From positions 1 to 30,203 of the IMG/VR virus record IMGVR_UViG_3300025133_004616: DNA of 30,203 bases, one strand, 5' to 3'. The notes below the pieces were generated by a model that saw only the letters and a list, made by a program, of their open reading frames with translations, was not told where the DNA came from and searched no databases. Shown in pieces: positions 510 through 30,140 of this stretch (position 1 is the stretch's first letter; every line of letters begins with the position of its first letter). This DNA comes from a virus. A program made the position numbers and the translations under genes.

Positions 510-1139
510 TTAAGCATAGCTTGGTGCTATGGGAACGCCATGTTTAAACATGAATCGTCTTACCTTTTCTTGAAAGTGGTCAACGTCAGCAACATCGTTT
601 TCAATTATATCGGTAAATTTTTGATAATCATTTAATGATGTTTCTGATGGATGGTTTAAATCTCGTTTACTGTTAGCCCTAACATCCATTGGGTCACCAA
701 TAATCTTAATTAAGATACCACCATGTTTTAAAACGTACTCAGCTTCATTTGGGAATCTGACATCAGGAATTACCAATGTATTACCACGTTTAACCGCATC
801 TTCACCAACGGAGGAAAATAATGATTTAACCCAAACATCCGAATCAAAATTATCTCTAAGGGCGTCAGTCCCCAACTCTTGTAGTATCTGACCAACGGTT
901 TTACCCCACATGTCTAGATACACATTTTTATCGTCTTGCGTGAAATTATATACTGGATTGTAAAATGGTTTGTTTGGTTCGTGGGTCATTTTCATTTCGT
1001 AACCAGTTAGTTCTTCAGCTATTAACCTTAGTTTATCAGCAAAAGCGTGTCGCTCTACTGGTTTAGAACTGAATTCAGCAAGAGTTTCGGCAAAGAAATC
1101 CTTACCGCTACCTATTGAACCATTTATACCTATAATCAT
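510..1139 (-). CDS. Deoxynucleoside monophosphate kinase (T4 gp1-like)
   Basis: A 209-residue P-loop kinase. The Walker A motif GSIGSGKD is at residues 7-14, close to the N-terminus as in the phage dNMP kinase family, and a conserved IPDVRFPNEAEYV segment lies near residue 125. These enzymes phosphorylate dNMPs to dNDPs for phage DNA synthesis. The ATG at 1139 sits directly before the P-loop strand and no earlier start fits. The gene has its own terminator (450-485) and a promoter about 100 bases upstream (1243-1250), so it is probably expressed alone from a long, structured leader. I am sure of the kinase fold and fairly sure of the dNMP substrate class. Confidence 0.85.
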   Translation of the reverse strand: MIIGINGSIGSGKDFFAETLAEFSSKPVERHAFADKLRLIAEELTGYEMKMTHEPNKPFYNPVYNFTQDDKNVYLDMWGKTVGQILQELGTDALRDNFDSDVWVKSLFSSVGEDAVKRGNTLVIPDVRFPNEAEYVLKHGGILIKIIGDPMDVRANSKRDLNHPSETSLNDYQKFTDIIENDVADVDHFQEKVRRFMFKHGVPIAPSYA

Positions 1140-1856: not shown

Positions 1857-1922
1857 TAACCTTTTGACATCATTTCTGATGTGCGGTAGCTACTACGTGC
1901 AAGTAGGTTAACCTCAGCCACC

Positions 1923-2291
1923 TGTAGATGGAGGGAATCGAACCCTCGTCTTACATTTGCCAATAACACTTTCTACAAGCTTAGTCACATTTTCTAATCT
2001 GACGAAATATCAAATCTTTACAGGGATTTGCAGACCCGCCATTGACTTTTATTACCCTTAAAAGTCACTGAAGAAAAAAGGGTTTGTTAAGCTGTCTTAA
2101 CTCGGCACCTATTATGCAGTTGGTGCAAACTTCCTTTACACTAAAACTTCTGCTTCAGTAGTAAAGAATCTTTCATAATTAACGAAATCTTCGCCTTTTA
2201 CAATTGCCAAGTAAATTTTATACTGCTATAACCTGAGTCGCAGTGCTTGCTTATATCAAAGAACTTAATGCAATCAAATCCAGTCATCCAC
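1923..2291 (-). ncRNA. ssrA: Transfer-messenger RNA (tmRNA)
   Basis: A 369-base RNA. The 5' arm GUGGAUG (2291-2285) pairs over seven positions with CAUCUAC (1930-1924), including a G3.U70 pair, the alanine identity element; base 1923 is the A discriminator. The T-arm is at 1931-1947 (GAGGG/CCCUC with loop UUCGAUU). The conserved UGGAUUUGAU follows the 5' arm. Helix 2 begins UUGCAUU (2273-2267) with AAUGUAA (1951-1957). Several hairpins follow the tag, for example GACUUUUA/UAAAAGUC. CCA is not encoded. tmRNA with SmpB rescues stalled ribosomes and adds a tag; no SmpB gene is seen here, so the host's is probably used. The tag reading frame is listed separately and its end is unusual. Confidence 0.93.
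2136..2195 (-). CDS. tmRNA tag reading frame
   Basis: The resume codon is probably GGC at 2195, preceded by GUAAAA, giving GEDFVNYERFFTTEAEVLV then TAA. The GE- start matches Bacteroidota tags such as GENNYALAA and GETNYALAA. The tag is 19 residues, longer than the usual 8-12, and ends -EVLV instead of -ALAA, the signal read by ClpX and ClpA. Three in-frame codons upstream (including a GCA) are open, so a resume point a few codons earlier cannot be excluded, but the C-terminus would be the same. Confidence 0.8.
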   Translation of the reverse strand, partial: GEDFVNYERFFTTEAEVLV

Positions 2292-2331: not shown

Positions 2332-4185
2332 CTAATATTCCAAATTAATGGTACATTTTGAATTAAAATATTCATTTAAAAAATTAGATACATCTTCATC
2401 GTATCTTATTTTTAGTAGTTGAATATTGTTATCAATACAGTATCCCTCCTTTATTTTATCCCGATACTGTCGATTTTCAAACCCTGAAACCCCACCAAAG
2501 AAGTCAACTGGTTCATAATGTTGCCTACCTTGATATTCAATACAGACATTATGTTCTGGTAGATAAAAATCAAATCGTAATGGTAATATATTTTTACAAT
2601 CATCGAAAGTGTGTTCTTGATTAAAATCGATATCTTTATCGATTAATAAAATCCTAATTTCCCGCTCACCTTTAGATTCTGTACAACTAGGACAACCCTG
2701 ACCCCTTTTATGACCACTTGGCGGTTGTTTAAATTCACCATGCTCTGGACATATGATAGTTACTTTGGTATAACTATCGATATAGTTAACCTTGGAATAA
2801 TCATACCTATCACCATGGACCTCTCTGAATTGTTTAACTACATCTTCAGTAGTTAATTTTGCATTAGGATGACACTTAGGGCAACCCATACCTTCTTTAT
2901 GACTATCTGGTCTTTGTTCAAATTCACCATGTTCTGGACATATGATAGTTACTTTGGTATAATTATAGATATAGTTAACCTTTGAATAATCATATTTATC
3001 GCCATGAATCTCTCTGAACTGTTCAATTAATTCTTCAGTTGTTGGTACATATTTACCAACACATTTAGGACAACGGCTACCTTTTTTATGTATATGTGGT
3101 GCTTGTTCAAATTCACCATGTTTAGGACATATGATAGTTACTTTAGTTTTGGAATGAATATACTCAACTTTGGAATAATCATATTTATCACTATGAACAT
3201 CTCTGAACTGTTCAATTATCTCTTTAGTTGTTAGACCTTGACCAACACATTTAGGGCAATCAGAACCCCTTTTATGACCACTTGGCGGTTGTTTAAATTC
3301 ACCATGCTCTGGACATATAATTGTTACTTTAGTTTTGGCGTTAATATAATTAACCATGGAATAATCATATTTATCACCATGAACCTCTCTAAACTGTTCG
3401 ATTACTTCTTCAGTAGTTAATTTAACATTACCAACACATTTAGGGCAATCAGAACCCCTTTTATGACCACTTGGCGGTTGTTTAAATTCACCATGCTCTG
3501 GACATATAATTGTTACCTTTGTATTGTTTTTACTATATAGAACCTTTGAATAATCGTATTTATCACCATGGACCTCTCTGAATTGTTCAATTAATTCTTC
3601 AGTTGTTAGTACATAGTTACCAACACATTTAGGACAACGGCTACCTGATTTATGGATATGTGGTGTTTGTTCAAATTCACCATGTTTAGGGCATATAATT
3701 GTTACCTTTGTATTGTTTTTACTATATAGAACCTTTGAATAATCGTATTTATCACCATGGACCTCTCTGAATTGTTTAACTACATCTTCAGTAGTTAATT
3801 TTGTGTTAGGATGACACTTAGGACAACCCTGACCCCCTTTATGGTTACATGGTTTCTGTTCAAATTCACCATGTTTAGGACATATGATAGTTACTTTAGT
3901 TTTGGAATGAATATACTCAACTTTGGAATAATCATATTTATCACTATGAACATCTCTGAACTGTTCAATTAGGTATACGGTTTTATCAACAGCGTTCTTA
4001 ATATTACATTTAGACCCAATCATTAGTCTTGTTGGTGTCATTAAATGTTCTCTATCATACTTCTTATCGATTACAATTACTTTGGTAGTATTAATTACAT
4101 AGTCAACCTTAGAATAATCATAATAATCATTCCAATGCCCACTATCCTTTAACTTCTGAAGAAATCTTTTGGTCTTATCGGTCAC
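2332..4185 (-). CDS. Giant zinc-ribbon-repeat endonuclease (DUF723 repeats plus Vsr-like nuclease domain)
   Basis: The protein has 617 residues. Residues about 64-504 hold seven tandem 63-residue units, each with YDYSKV, TKVTIICP.HGEF.Q, H..G and CP.C, four likely zinc ligands per unit (DUF723-type ribbons seen in phage homing enzymes). A degenerate eighth copy at the N-terminus has lost most of its ligands. The last 110 residues have a PD-(D/E)XK/Vsr-like core: GEREI, RFDFYLP and CIEYQGRQHY. I infer a site-specific homing endonuclease with an unusually long DNA-binding array. The start is a GTG at 4185, four bases after a TATCTTTG box, so the mRNA should be leaderless. The gene lies just upstream of the tmRNA. 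Confidence 0.82.
   Translation of the reverse strand: MTDKTKRFLQKLKDSGHWNDYYDYSKVDYVINTTKVIVIDKKYDREHLMTPTRLMIGSKCNIKNAVDKTVYLIEQFRDVHSDKYDYSKVEYIHSKTKVTIICPKHGEFEQKPCNHKGGQGCPKCHPNTKLTTEDVVKQFREVHGDKYDYSKVLYSKNNTKVTIICPKHGEFEQTPHIHKSGSRCPKCVGNYVLTTEELIEQFREVHGDKYDYSKVLYSKNNTKVTIICPEHGEFKQPPSGHKRGSDCPKCVGNVKLTTEEVIEQFREVHGDKYDYSMVNYINAKTKVTIICPEHGEFKQPPSGHKRGSDCPKCVGQGLTTKEIIEQFRDVHSDKYDYSKVEYIHSKTKVTIICPKHGEFEQAPHIHKKGSRCPKCVGKYVPTTEELIEQFREIHGDKYDYSKVNYIYNYTKVTIICPEHGEFEQRPDSHKEGMGCPKCHPNAKLTTEDVVKQFREVHGDRYDYSKVNYIDSYTKVTIICPEHGEFKQPPSGHKRGQGCPSCTESKGEREIRILLIDKDIDFNQEHTFDDCKNILPLRFDFYLPEHNVCIEYQGRQHYEPVDFFGGVSGFENRQYRDKIKEGYCIDNNIQLLKIRYDEDVSNFLNEYFNSKCTINLEY
2674..3996 (-). repeat. Seven 189-bp tandem repeats inside the zinc-ribbon endonuclease
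   Basis: The unit is 189 bp (63 codons). Neighbouring copies share long identical stretches: 3241 onward equals 3430 onward for roughly 85 bases, the segment near 3509 equals that near 3698, and copies 756 bp (four units) apart near 3118 and 3874 share about 100 identical bases. The mosaic pattern points to recent duplication or gene conversion between units. Confidence 0.85.
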
Positions 4186-4655: not shown

Positions 4656-5549
4656 ATGAAACAGACGTTTATTTATGGGTTATATTCCAATAGAAGTGAT
4701 GAAATTAGATATGTTGGTAAGTCTGACAATCCTGATAAAAGATTAATAAAACATATCTGTAATACTAAAGTACATGTTATCAAAAATAAAAAGTTAACGC
4801 ATAAGGAACATTGGTTAATTAAAAATGACTTTAATGTTAAGTGTGTTATACTTGAAGAATGTAATTATGATGTTTGGCCTGAACGTGAGCAGTTTTACAT
4901 CGAAAAATATGATAATTTAACCAACACGGCTAAAGGTGGTCTCGGTGGTGGCACTATAATATACACTAAAACATACGATGAGGTTAAAAACTGGGTACAA
5001 TCGAATTTGGATATTACGTCAAAAAAAGAATGGTATGTTTACGATAAACAAAATAACCTACCTGAATTTATACCAGCAAACCCAAGCACTGTTTATAAAA
5101 ATCGTGGCTGGGTTTCTTGGGGGGATTTTTTAGGTACTGGTAGGGTTTGTGATAATTATTTAGAACGTTTATCTTATTCTGAAGCAAAACGTATATTAAA
5201 ACCATTTAAACTAAAATCAGCAACCGAATATTGTGAGATGTATGATAAAGGTAAGATACCTGACAATATACCAAAAAAAGCTAATAGATATTATAAAGAC
5301 CGTGGCTGGGTATCTTGGGGCGATTTTTTAGGTAACGGATTTGTTGCTAACCAATTAAGAGAATTCTATAGTTATGATGAATTTAAAGCGAAAGTATCCG
5401 AATTAGGTTTTAAAACATATACATCTTATAAACAATATATTAAAAATAATAAACCTGACATTAAATTACCAACCAACCCAAACACTGTGTATAAAGACAA
5501 AGGTTGGGTTGGTTGGTCTAATATGTTTAAATCTGAGTCTTGTTCTTAA
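4656..5549 (+). CDS. GIY-YIG homing endonuclease with integrase-type repeats
   Basis: The 297-residue protein starts with a GIY-YIG nuclease domain: FIYGLYS at residues 4-10, then IRYVGKSDNPDKRLIKH with the usual Tyr, Gly and Arg, and a catalytic Glu in the segment after residue 70. The rest has three repeats ending YK.RGWVSWGDFLG, like the phage integrase repeat family (INT_rpt), probably used for DNA binding; the third is degenerate. It is likely a free-standing homing endonuclease. Its last 23 bases overlap the convergent ClpP gene, so it sits against an essential-looking neighbour. Base composition is similar to adjacent genes. Confidence 0.82.
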   Translation: MKQTFIYGLYSNRSDEIRYVGKSDNPDKRLIKHICNTKVHVIKNKKLTHKEHWLIKNDFNVKCVILEECNYDVWPEREQFYIEKYDNLTNTAKGGLGGGTIIYTKTYDEVKNWVQSNLDITSKKEWYVYDKQNNLPEFIPANPSTVYKNRGWVSWGDFLGTGRVCDNYLERLSYSEAKRILKPFKLKSATEYCEMYDKGKIPDNIPKKANRYYKDRGWVSWGDFLGNGFVANQLREFYSYDEFKAKVSELGFKTYTSYKQYIKNNKPDIKLPTNPNTVYKDKGWVGWSNMFKSESCS

Positions 5550-6228
5550 TAACCGAATCAATGATACCATAATCAACAGCTTCTTCTGCTGTGAGCCAAA
5601 AATCTCTATTAGCATCTGTCTTAACTTGTTCGGGGTCTTTATCACAGTATCCCCCTAATAATACAAATAGACTATCGTTTTCCTTTTCAGCTTCCTCTAC
5701 GGATATTCTCATATCCTGAATGTTACCCTCAGTACCGTAACTTACTTGGTGTAGCATCACTTTTGAACTCGGTAAACTATATCTTTTACCTTTGGTTCCA
5801 CCCCCAAGTAGTACACTACCCATCGATGCTGCCATACCAGTATTGATTGTTACAATATCAGAATCAACATAATTCATAACATCAATCATACTTTTGCCAC
5901 TCTTGGTGCTTCCACCTGGCGAATCAACATGCATTGTAATGTCTTCTTTACCTTGTGTATCCAACCACATTAGTTGAGCTTGAACAACCGTTGACATAGA
6001 GTCATTGACAACACCAGCAACCCATATAATTCGTTCCATCTGCATCCTTGAGAAGATATCCATTTGGATTGCTCTTCTATCAGATTCTTCAGTGATATAT
6101 GGTGTTAACGATGCATTTGCACCATATAACTTATCTTGAAGTTTCTCCCAATAATGTATTTGCATTGGGTTTACGTTCAGATGTTTTGTGGCGTAATTAA
6201 TAAAGTCTTGATTATAGTACATTTTCAT
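5527..6228 (-). CDS. clpP: ClpP-like serine protease
   Basis: 233 residues. The ClpP fold and triad are intact: Ser in GMAASMGSVLL, His in KVMLHQVS, and Asp in the RDFWLTAEEAVDYGIID segment. The oxyanion-type HVDSPGGS loop is also present. A roughly 60-residue N-terminal extension with no homology that I recognise precedes the domain. ClpP forms a barrel protease fed by ClpX or ClpA; neither is visible here, so it would pair with host ATPases or act in head maturation, as ClpP-like phage proteases sometimes do. The start overlaps the end of the disrupted small gene upstream. Nearness to the tmRNA suggests, but does not prove, a link with tagged proteins. Confidence 0.9.
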   Translation of the reverse strand: MKMYYNQDFINYATKHLNVNPMQIHYWEKLQDKLYGANASLTPYITEESDRRAIQMDIFSRMQMERIIWVAGVVNDSMSTVVQAQLMWLDTQGKEDITMHVDSPGGSTKSGKSMIDVMNYVDSDIVTINTGMAASMGSVLLGGGTKGKRYSLPSSKVMLHQVSYGTEGNIQDMRISVEEAEKENDSLFVLLGGYCDKDPEQVKTDANRDFWLTAEEAVDYGIIDSVIKNKTQI

Positions 6229-6906: not shown

Positions 6907-7923
6907 TTAAGTGTCAACTGAATCTTTATCTTTTTTCAATTCGGTTAACAATTCCCTATCGGTATCGGTTAATTCCGTTGGGTACTTAACGTTTAGTCGT
7001 ATGTGCATATCACCACGTTCATTGGTAATCCCTAGCCCACGTTGTCTCTTTTTAAACCCTTGACCTTTAACCCTCAACACTTTCCTATCATGTGATAACT
7101 CAGGGATATTCAACTTAATTTTTGTATCAGATATTGTTGGTACCATTTTTTCACAACCCAAAACAATCTCTGGGTATGTTAAATCCATTAAATACGATAT
7201 ATCAAATGGGTTTTCTGGGTTTCGTATAAAATCATCATCATCTTTTATCACTATATCCACGATTAAAGCGCCCACCATACCGTTATTTAGCTCGTTACCA
7301 TGGCCTTGGTATGATAATCTTTCACCATTAAGGATGCTTGGTGGTATGTTTATATTAACATTATTTGTCTTAGGTTTTTTACCTGTTGATGAGCATTGAT
7401 TACATGGTTTTTTATATGTTTTACCTTGACCATTACAGTTTGTGCAAGTCGTTTGTGTTACCATGAACCCATTATCCATTACCATCGCACCACTACCACC
7501 GCAAGATGAACAGGTTTCCGCATCAAACCCACCAGCACCGTCACATGGTTTACACTTTTCGTGTAATGTGTAGCTGATTGGTACTGTCTTACCGTTAAGA
7601 ACATCTTTAAGTTCTATAGCAATTTTGTGATGGATATTAGGTTGTATATCACGTTGTTGGTGTTGATGTGACGCTCTTCTGAAGAACTCTTCAAACCCCA
7701 TAGGACCACCACCTCCCATACCACCAAAAGGTGATGGGTTGTCATACGCTTTTCTTTTTTCAGGGTCTGATAGTATGCCGTAAGCCTCAGAAATTTCTTT
7801 AAACTTTTCTTCGTCACCACCCTTGTCTGGGTGGTGTTTTTTGGAAAGTTTTCTATAAGCTTTTTTCAACTCATCTTGTGTGGCACTTTTATCTACACCT
7901 AACGTTTCATAGTATTTTGACAT
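6907..7923 (-). CDS. dnaJ: DnaJ (Hsp40) co-chaperone
   Basis: 338 residues, type I DnaJ. The J domain (1-62) contains the HPD tripeptide near residue 31. A short Gly/Phe linker follows, then four zinc-binding repeats ([32 protein letters not shown]) and the C-terminal substrate-binding domains. It is about 30-40 residues shorter than typical bacterial DnaJ, mainly in the linker and C-terminus. It should stimulate host DnaK and might help fold virion proteins or redirect the host chaperone. The promoter at 7940-7947 is a full Bacteroidota type. The ATG at 7923 lies 16 bases after the box with no Shine-Dalgarno. Confidence 0.93.
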
Positions 7924-10179: not shown

Positions 10180-11643
10180 CTATATCGTAACGGCTTCATA
10201 CCTAGATGAGTTTATTACGTTCATCATCATACTATAAGGTGTTATATCTGAACCATCTAAAATGTTGGTTAATAGACTCGTATTAAAACCGCTAACTAAA
10301 GCTGTTTTATCTTCACTGAACTTGACTGGGCTATCACTGTTACGAGCATTAAGATTCCAATAAACCAACTTAGGTATTTCATACCCAGCTTCTTCATACA
10401 TTGAGCTAATCATCTCCTGTGCTGTTGGACTCCAAGAACCCCTAGTACCTCTATGGTGTCTAGAACGAAAACAGTCCGTTGCCTCATTAAATTGCATATC
10501 ACTCAAAATAAGAACCATTGTTGGCATTTCTGATTTAGCAATATTATTCTCTTTAGCCTTATCAAGTATTAACTGAAATACTGCCTCAAGATTGGTACTC
10601 ATACCCCAGTTAGCACTATGTAATTGTGCGTATCTTTCGATTAGATTACCTTTAAGGTATTCAAGCTCAGGTTGTTCTGAGAATGTTATGAAAGAATCTT
10701 TAAAAGAACCCTCATTTCTTTCTGAAATATAAAGACCTAAACTGATTGCAACATCCATACATGTGATTGAACCTGACCCACTTGCTGAACAAGCCATAGA
10801 GCCTGAGACATCAACTACTGGTAATAACATTTCATTATTATTTTCCATATAGTTTGGTAGGTTATTCCACATCGTGTTCGCACCACTTGGATTACCATTA
10901 CTCAACATGTTTATCACGTTATATGGATATACCGCACCAGTGTTGATTTTTACCTCACCTTTATCAACTGACTCAAGATACTCAACGTATCTATCACCAC
11001 CATTTTTAGTGAACGCTCTAGCATAATCAGCCATAGCTTTAGATGGCACTTTTGAGTAATCAATCATAGAGAAATCACGATTACACATATTAGTTTCAAT
11101 AACATTAGTTGCCTCAGCCAACATTTTTCTATAGGTCTTTGGTGTAAGACCCATATACTTAGCTATTTTTTTAGCTATGACCTTTTTCTTAATGTTTGAA
11201 CCGTTTGGTCTTGGTGACCATTTGGCCGCCAATCCATCGCCAGATTTAAGTGCTGACGAAATCATTTTTAATGCGACCTCTTCGAGTGCCGTACCAAACA
11301 ATAAAAATACGTCATCCCATCTACCGTATACTGGTATTAGATTGGTATTCTTAGCCATCACCTCCGTTCTATTATCAGCTAAGTACTTAATGATTGTTCT
11401 GAAGACCTTTCGTTCTCCAGCACCACCTCTAATGTCTCTAACCCAGAAAAGAACTTTCATGGCTGTAAGCGCATCCTCTTCAAAGGCCTTTACAAATAGA
11501 TTGACAACCTCAGTTTCTGATTGTGTTCTCATCGAACCAATTCTCGAAAATAAATCAACACACATGTTTAGTGTTGTTGAATTGGTTGGCATACCGTTTT
11601 CGGTTGTCTTATCTTTAGTTCTTAATGCGTCTACTAATCCCAT
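10180..11643 (-). CDS. TROVE-like (DUF2828-type) RNA-binding protein with vWA domain, Ro60-like
   Basis: 487 residues. The N-terminal half has the helical-repeat signatures VRDIRGGAGER and IPVYGRWDDV typical of TROVE/DUF2828 proteins. The C-terminal half is a von Willebrand A domain with a full MIDAS: DVSGS near residue 278, Thr in GMSTNLEAVF, and Asp in LILSDMQF. Ro60 and its bacterial relative Rsr are ring proteins that bind Y RNAs and misfolded RNAs and can aid RNA decay or quality control. No Y-like RNA was seen next to the gene, and the function in a phage is inferred. It is a single-gene unit with a full promoter (11672-11679) and its own terminator. Confidence 0.85.
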   Translation of the reverse strand: MGLVDALRTKDKTTENGMPTNSTTLNMCVDLFSRIGSMRTQSETEVVNLFVKAFEEDALTAMKVLFWVRDIRGGAGERKVFRTIIKYLADNRTEVMAKNTNLIPVYGRWDDVFLLFGTALEEVALKMISSALKSGDGLAAKWSPRPNGSNIKKKVIAKKIAKYMGLTPKTYRKMLAEATNVIETNMCNRDFSMIDYSKVPSKAMADYARAFTKNGGDRYVEYLESVDKGEVKINTGAVYPYNVINMLSNGNPSGANTMWNNLPNYMENNNEMLLPVVDVSGSMACSASGSGSITCMDVAISLGLYISERNEGSFKDSFITFSEQPELEYLKGNLIERYAQLHSANWGMSTNLEAVFQLILDKAKENNIAKSEMPTMVLILSDMQFNEATDCFRSRHHRGTRGSWSPTAQEMISSMYEEAGYEIPKLVYWNLNARNSDSPVKFSEDKTALVSGFNTSLLTNILDGSDITPYSMMMNVINSSRYEAVTI

Positions 11644-29156: not shown

Positions 29157-30140
29157 ATGAGCAATAAAATCGTAAGAACCATTAGTGAAAATCCAATATG
29201 TGGAATATATCAAGTAACCAATAAGGTTAATGATAAAATTTATGTTGGTCAATCCATTGACATCGAAAGACGTTGGAATCAACACCGATATGGAAAGGGT
29301 AGTTTGATACTAAGAAACGCAATTAAAAAATATAGTATAGACAATTTTGAATTTTCCATTTTAGAGGAAGTTGAATTTATTAACAAATCAGAAACAACGG
29401 AATTGCTGACTGAATTAGAACAAAAATGGTTTGATTTAAAAGAACCACATAAAAATGGTTATAATATTAATAAAACATCAAAACCAAATTTAACACCTAG
29501 TCGAGATAAGCATTTTGGTGATAAAATCAGTAGGATTAAAATTGAAAATAATCATTGTGGTAAACCAATAAATCAATACGATTTAAATGGTGATTTTATT
29601 AAAAAGTGGAAATCAGCTGCGCAGGTTGAAAGGGTTTTAGGTTATCACGCTGAGAATATATCAGCATGTTGTTTAAAAAAACAACATTCATCCAATAACT
29701 TTATTTGGAGATTTGAAAATGATGTGTTAAGTGAGGATGATATTAATAAAGCTAACAACTCAAAACGAATGTCAAAAGTTAGACAGTACAACTTAAAGGG
29801 TGAATTACTTAATATCTTTGAAAATGTAAAAGATGCATCGGAAAAAACTGGGTTTTCTGCGTCTGGAATTAGAGCGGGTTGTAATGGTTATAGAAAAACT
29901 ACTTTTAATTATATATGGAAATTTAAAAATGAGGAATTAAATTTGCTAGACCATATTACTAAAAAAGATTATCCAATTAAACAAACATCATTAGACGGTG
30001 AACTTATAAATATATGGGATAATTCACAACAGATAATATCAAATTTAAAATTACAAAGATGGGCCACTAAAGGTATATATAAATGTTGTGAAAATAAAAA
30101 AGAAAAGTATCTAAATTATAAGTGGGAATGGGGTTTATGA
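29157..30140 (+). CDS. GIY-YIG homing endonuclease with three NUMOD1-type repeats
   Basis: 327 residues. The GIY-YIG domain is N-terminal: GIYQVTN at 16-22, KIYVGQSIDIERRWNQH with the conserved Tyr, Gly and Arg, and a Glu near residue 89 in ELEQKWFD. Three DNA-binding repeats follow (QYDLNGDFIKKWKSAAQVE, QYNLKGELLNIFENVKDA, QTSLDGELINIWDNSQQ), each ending in a W.F/E-type strand, like NUMOD1/IENR modules. It converges on the gene at the right edge and overlaps its last 6 bases. The related 3' end at 28957-29019 suggests the endonuclease was inserted at this gene's end. Confidence 0.87.
   Translation: MSNKIVRTISENPICGIYQVTNKVNDKIYVGQSIDIERRWNQHRYGKGSLILRNAIKKYSIDNFEFSILEEVEFINKSETTELLTELEQKWFDLKEPHKNGYNINKTSKPNLTPSRDKHFGDKISRIKIENNHCGKPINQYDLNGDFIKKWKSAAQVERVLGYHAENISACCLKKQHSSNNFIWRFENDVLSEDDINKANNSKRMSKVRQYNLKGELLNIFENVKDASEKTGFSASGIRAGCNGYRKTTFNYIWKFKNEELNLLDHITKKDYPIKQTSLDGELINIWDNSQQIISNLKLQRWATKGIYKCCENKKEKYLNYKWEWGL

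Follow-up and report, generated by a model that had tools for sequence, protein, structure and literature searches.

Background

Phage-borne tmRNA genes are known from 402 of 18,146 phage genomes, a count given in the paper on the methylophage Melnitz (PMC9004378). Both tmRNA and SmpB have been reported in huge phages (PMC7162821), and ClpP, ClpA and ClpX in jumbo phages (PMC7824862). A reduced form is found in mycobacteriophage DS6A, whose tmRNA consists of the tRNA-like domain only, and inhibition by molecules of this kind has been described (PMC4131195).

The window considered here, i.e., the whole 30,203-nt stretch of DNA that was analysed, is a 30-kb linear virus record encoding a phage primase, SbcC/SbcD-like proteins, a sigma factor and amidases. 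Searches by DNA similarity to named phages returned no full-length relative. Among its genes are a tmRNA with an unusual tag and a clpP gene (Table 1), and we ask below how the two compare with the systems already described.

Table 1. Coordinates of the tmRNA gene, its parts and the neighbouring genes in the window.
Feature	Positions	Strand	Remarks
One-piece tmRNA (ssrA) gene	1922..2291	-	RF00023 match; 5' end 2291, discriminator A 1923
pk1 stem 1 ACUGC/GCAGU and loop	2222..2244	-	2244-2240 pairs with 2226-2222
pk1 stem 2, 5' strand UCAGGU	2231..2236	-	Pairs with 2212-2207
pk1 stem 2, 3' strand ACUUGG	2207..2212	-	Holds the start of the rejected upstream frame GNCKRRRFR-stop
Tag reading frame GEDFVNYERFFTTEAEVLV-stop	2136..2195	-	Resume GGC 2195-2193, stop UAA 2138-2136; same frame in L035 and L036
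ClpP, 233 aa, cellular type	5527..6228	-	CLP_protease 183.5 bits; GMAASMG serine, MLHQ histidine, NRD aspartate
Putative phage metallopeptidase	6422..6850	-	PF18894 29.0 bits; beside clpP in 14/14 neighbourhoods
DnaJ	6907..7923	-	DnaJ, DnaJ_CXXCXGXG and DnaJ_C domains; upstream of metallopeptidase and clpP in relatives too
dNMP kinase	510..1139	-	PF21448; next conserved gene after tmRNA in G001 and G003
Treble-clef/DUF723 repeat protein, endonuclease-like C-terminus	2332..4185	-	PF14311, PF05265; between clpP and tmRNA
GIY-YIG-like ORF	4656..5549	+	Sequence reading; between clpP and tmRNA

A one-piece tmRNA gene in the window

The window RNA matches the Rfam tmRNA family RF00023 with 66 bits (gathering score 47; E 8e-24) over model positions 1-374, which is the full length of the model. 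Its acceptor stem, GTGGATG/CATCTAC, forms seven of seven pairs, with G3.U70 and a discriminator A, the T-stem GAGGG/CCCTC is fully paired, and CCA is not encoded by the gene. A short tag ORF lies 3' of the pseudoknot pk1, with A at -4 of its resume codon (UAAAA followed by GGC). ARAGORN made no call on this RNA and likewise missed the tmRNAs of L035 and L036, two records whose ClpP is 80% identical to that of the window. These observations confirm that the window carries a real tmRNA, as a first-pass annotation of this DNA had claimed. The same annotation had assigned an alanine identity, with which the retained G3.U70 pair agrees; every one of the 28 clade tmRNAs (see below) with a parsable T-arm has this pair. 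We take the gene to encode a working phage tmRNA, which would be charged with alanine and used on stalled ribosomes.

Stem 2 of pk1 pairs ACUUG(A/G) with the loop sequence CAGGU at the same positions in the window, L035, L036 and L267, and the four sequences carry compensatory changes on both sides (U-A/C-G and G-C/A-U). Within any single sequence this pairing is not significant by shuffling, so the support for the stem is its recurrence at the same position in four sequences.

Just beyond the tmRNA, positions 1752-1870 hold a tiny plus-strand ORF (MKGCGCKPNKPRVSA) and, after it, an inverted repeat of 11 bp, TGTACCCTAGC/GCTAGGGTACA, and ATATTTTTT; this may be a terminator whose loop exceeds the length allowed by a consensus scan.

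Tag sequence and reading frame

In translation the window tag has 19 residues, GEDFVNYERFFTTEAEVLV, and ends in -EVLV. For comparison we used 105 ARAGORN tag calls from Bacteroidota, a few of which look like miscalls (e.g., AEPRCGRAQNRG): 99 end in A (ALAA in 85), and the length is 8-10 aa in 99. The window tag is about twice the usual length and its ending is not -ALAA, both as first annotated; it carries neither -LAA nor -MAA, the C-terminal signature of ALAA-type degradation tags. The bases U at -5 and A at -4 of the resume codon are equivalent to U85 and A86, which set the frame in E. coli tmRNA (PMC2481249). The tag and frame given by the first-pass annotation hold. L035 and L036 have the same frame, and their tags, almost identical to that of the window, read GEDFVNYERFFATEAEVLV and GEDFVNYERFFATEAEALV, each followed by a stop codon; the ends ...EVLV and ...EALV are both seen in this pair.

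Among the three sequences the tag differs at 1-2 of 60 nt vs 24-40 differences in the ~310 nt elsewhere in the RNA. Both tag changes alter the amino acid, so the trio cannot separate constraint on the protein from constraint on the RNA. The conservation bears on whether the gene could be decaying, or be a passenger devoid of function, which we consider very improbable. The acceptor and T-stem are fully paired with G3.U70 kept, the tag has changed less than the remainder of the RNA and two relatives keep the same RNA; on the other side are the modest score of 66 bits, a 2-71 pair that is U-A and not G-C, a mismatched end of pk1 stem 2 in the window and the mobile character of neighbouring genes.

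The covariance-model alignment places the resume column elsewhere, at GGC 2208, 13 nt upstream, which would give a basic tag of 9 aa, GNCKRRRFR followed by a stop (ENYKRRRFR followed by a stop in relatives), with the stop codon in the H5 loop of the model. This frame is as long as the host tag and also has U at -5 and A at -4 (UACUU followed by GGC), but its resume codon sits inside pk1 stem 2, i.e., within the pairing that four sequences maintain through compensatory changes. It would also resume 83 nt from the 5' end, outside the range of 91-98 nt found in 31 of 31 clade tmRNAs (frame A). The homologous frame in L267, the relative next in closeness after L035 and L036, stops after ENYN, and the downstream frame of that RNA encodes a 27-aa tag; basic tags never occur among the relatives. 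We therefore reject the upstream frame, whose chance of being the true one appears slight in spite of the Rfam alignment. The first-pass annotation had foreseen that a covariance model might move the resume codon to another frame with a normal -LAA end; the frame was indeed moved, without such an end, and the move is the one rejected here.

A clade of phage tmRNAs with long tags

Queries with the ClpP, the SbcC-like protein and the vWA protein led to 30 clade tmRNAs beyond the window, in phages of up to 368 kb; 24 of these records came from the SbcC-like and vWA queries and not from ClpP. All 31 tags, the window included, are 19-27 aa long, vs ~9 aa in Bacteroidota. Their last residue is A in 25 and V in six, and nothing else. 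Most tags end in -AVA, -VAA or similar, with -ALV or -ELV in L270, L280 and L286, and a core common to most of them reads DNDFIVSENFLDEA...GELAVA, with variants.

One subclade has the core (V)SENFL(D)EA, hereafter SENFL. Over all pairs of its 19 distinct tags, core codons differ 406, 324 and 827 times at positions 1, 2 and 3, respectively, and codons with a single difference are synonymous or nonsynonymous in a ratio of 372:172 in frame, compared with 125:594 and 186:562 in the two shifted frames. The tested codons contain no stop in frame; the shifted frames contain stops in 19/19 and 5/19 sequences. The preponderance of third-position changes, the synonymous excess, and its reversal together with the stops in shifted frames indicate that the SENFL core is under selection at the protein level.

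The window tag resembles the SENFL pattern as DF..E.F..EA.., but in a profile test its match to the SENFL core did not go beyond shuffles (2420 of 20000), and since the match is not significant we do not claim the same motif in both. The window tag is better seen as a probable diverged member of the clade, placed there by its position and by synteny, not by motif. From tags starting with GE or GN we infer a Bacteroidota host; a tag pattern search of genome contigs gave no match, so no host or prophage was identified.

Other phage tmRNAs came to light during these searches. L002 (9712-10033, minus strand), a 122-kb phage contig, encodes a permuted two-piece tmRNA among tRNA genes, with the normal-looking tag VEENFALAA. 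A tmRNA call in L090 (8723-9157, plus strand) and in L092 (3949-4383, minus strand) has an odd putative tag, DGSKGVLGCAFQ, that does not end in A. The phage tmRNAs of L004, L083 and L094 have tags of 28-31 aa with LALA, EMAA or LALAA at the end and are, as far as could be seen, unrelated to this clade; tags of such length may be widespread among phage tmRNAs. The 77-nt matches in L037 and L043, the ones checked among L037-L043, are tRNA-Ala and not tmRNA.

The clpP-tmRNA neighbourhood

In 29 of the 31 records a cellular-type clpP precedes the tmRNA on the same strand, within 1 kb in 23 and within 300 bp in 18, a linkage inherited among relatives, so that the records are not independent. In G010 and G019 the two genes are separated by ~20 kb. 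All 14 mapped neighbourhoods show the order DnaJ - metallopeptidase - ClpP - tmRNA, and the ClpP in them is as little as 56% identical to that of the window.

The window ClpP scores 203-205 bits with the ClpP models of NCBIfam vs 65.9 with the ClpP-related head protease model, all of them below the curated cut-offs, and alignment to the solved ClpP 3q7h shows the catalytic Ser-His-Asp triad kept. A head-maturation protease, the best PHROGs match, was rejected: cellular ClpP models score ~3 times higher, and the gene sits beside DnaJ and the tmRNA, not among structural genes. Second, weaker ClpP-like matches occur in G028, G027 and G003 (e.g., G003:69310-69855, which stops at the end); these are probably head-maturation proteases, separate from the tmRNA-linked ClpP.

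The window keeps the conserved gene order, with a clpP-tmRNA gap of 3.2 kb that contains two endonuclease-like genes. Its relative G003 (L314) has neither insertion and a gap of ~200 bp. The protein encoded nearer to the tmRNA (617 aa, with about seven treble-clef repeats of the form GDKYDYSKV.Y...TKVTIICP.HGEF.Q) has a shorter counterpart, 72% identical, at the equivalent site in G001 (L320) and none in G003, and its gene looks like that of a mobile endonuclease. The GIY-YIG-like ORF has no NCBIfam match and was not seen between clpP and tmRNA in any of the 14 mapped relatives. Together with a second such ORF at 29157-30140 (+), it runs on the strand opposite to most genes; both are likely homing endonucleases. 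A DUF7788/DUF2828 vWA-type protein (10180-11643, minus strand) is kept with the DnaJ-ClpP-tmRNA neighbourhood in relatives and may belong to the same quality-control block.

Outside the clade the pairing was sparse. No clpP was found within the 8-kb loci around Bacteroidota tmRNAs, and tmRNA-bearing phages of other groups have clpP in three of 22 cases. One of the three, L006, came from a tmRNA pattern search and has a ClpP 58% identical to that of the window, a tmRNA ~350 bp downstream and a 27-aa tag. Some ClpP-bearing kin have no tmRNA call. In Lak-B5 (10-aa tag DDEIEFRMAA) clpP is ~62 kb away, and in LR756504 (tag DNVNSFEQSILNELFAPVEMAVAA) it is 11 kb away; given these distances, we assign tight clpP-tmRNA linkage to this clade.

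SmpB and Clp ATPase genes in the larger relatives

Five records encode SmpB, and four of them are among the five that exceed 270 kb. All five records of that size have a ClpC-like ATPase, the copy in G027 being counted by domain match only. In the relatives L308-L311 the ATPase has Clp_N, two AAA modules and an [MV]GF loop at the ClpP-docking position, in keeping with the ClpC/ClpA type (Clp_N, two AAA modules, [LIVM]G[FL] loop), a combination not found in the window. Shorter ClpC-like versions are present in G011 and G012 (ORFs of 665-680 aa) and in G019, and that of L312 is also shorter and has no Clp_N match. A ClpS adaptor was looked for and not found. Both SmpB and a Clp ATPase were looked for without success in the 30-kb window and in its close relative G003 (162 kb, incomplete), and in this lineage the two may come from the host.

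Proposed function of the tag

Taken together, we favour the reading, to which we give a probability of roughly 60%, that the gene makes a functional phage tmRNA and that its private tag directs products into Clp proteolysis in which the phage's own ClpP takes part. The host enzyme would load the phage tmRNA with alanine, and the RNA would enter stalled ribosomes with SmpB, where the 19-aa phage-specific tag would be appended and translation would end at a normal stop codon. The tag is probably still a degradation signal, presumably read by a Clp ATPase that works with the phage ClpP; the phage itself encodes both ATPase and SmpB in its largest relatives. The benefit could lie in freeing ribosomes from messages broken during infection, with their products cleared by a route under phage control.

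That some degradation takes place is argued by tag ends that are exclusively A or V and by the linkage to clpP, and the earlier suggestion that a tag lacking -LAA may mean no degradation does not fare well against 31 of 31 clade tags ending in these residues next to a linked clpP. Ribosomes can be released without destruction of the product of trans-translation, and a V-ending tag could evade the host Clp proteases, leaving products intact or protecting truncated proteins of the phage. The -VLV end of the window tag suits this idea, and in E. coli tags ending in AAV and ASV are more stable than those ending in LAA or LVA; however, such V-ending variants are slow degrons and not dead ones (PMC9097571). 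A small hydrophobic A or V closes every clade tag, most often as -AVA, -VAA or similar, and clpP is linked to the tmRNA. Rescue that spares the product is, accordingly, an unlikely explanation, if the least unlikely of the rivals.

Competition would assign little importance to the tag sequence: the phage RNA would divert SmpB, AlaRS or stalled ribosomes from the host tmRNA, for which DS6A and the inhibition by tRNA-like-domain-only molecules offer a precedent (PMC4131195). Yet no part of the RNA is better conserved than the tag in the window and its two close relatives, selection at the protein level maintains the SENFL-subclade tag, and a pure decoy needs no open tag. We find this explanation improbable. 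Of the three options first proposed for the phage (rescue without destruction, competition with the host tmRNA, marking for a different protease), it is the last that gains most, since almost every relative has clpP immediately before the tmRNA. The first-pass annotation did not include the clade of long tags, the linkage to clpP, or the SmpB and ClpC-like ATPase of the largest relatives.

The preferred reading of a tag that feeds Clp proteolysis can be extended to the clade. clpP adjoining the tmRNA in relatives suggests a tag-and-dispose system run by the phage. More tentatively, and with odds that we place somewhat below even, a clade of large, probably Bacteroidota-infecting phages might run private trans-translation, for which the largest members supply their own SmpB. 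Phage ClpC-ClpP, and not host ClpXP, would then recognise the conserved core and the A/V end of the long phage-coded tag, and the phage could choose which stalled products are destroyed.

Comparison with known systems

In the open-access literature, which was the scope of our search, we found no report of a clpP-ssrA pair or of a conserved long phage tag. What appears to be new is the conserved clpP-ssrA neighbourhood and the class of long phage tags; phage tmRNAs, SmpB and Clp genes were known. A conserved neighbourhood with tags that are held at the protein level and are unlike those of the host makes the question of why phages carry tmRNA testable. If the tag is private, it would be a case of a virus rewriting the label by which host quality control addresses proteins, and it could serve as an orthogonal tag for protein degradation in Bacteroidota.

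The one-piece tmRNA of Bacteroidota (RF00023) is alike in architecture and in G3.U70, and the window tag starts with GE as most Bacteroidota tags do, but those tags have ~9 aa and end in -ALAA, compared with 19 aa and -EVLV here. Mycobacteriophage tmRNAs (annotated tags, e.g., AVDTDVDFAMWEAELASDLVAA and AADVAADYAAVGA) are, like that of the window, phage-borne, one-piece and equipped with long or odd-ended tags; they belong to unrelated phages, and their tags end in A whereas that of the window ends in V. The tmRNA of the methylophage Melnitz was likewise proposed to tag proteins in infection; unlike that of the window, it is a two-piece molecule under a glutamine riboswitch, with no protease link reported in the available excerpt of its description (PMC9004378). 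Cellular ClpCP resembles the set found in the large relatives, i.e., an ATPase with Clp_N, two AAA modules and a docking loop, together with ClpP, but the relatives' set is encoded by the phage and came without a detectable ClpS adaptor. Finally, the tmRNA and SmpB genes of huge phages (PMC7162821) and the ClpP, ClpA and ClpX genes of jumbo phages (PMC7824862) are of the same kinds and were reported separately, whereas the present clade keeps clpP and ssrA together as neighbours and has a phage-specific tag peptide that is itself conserved.
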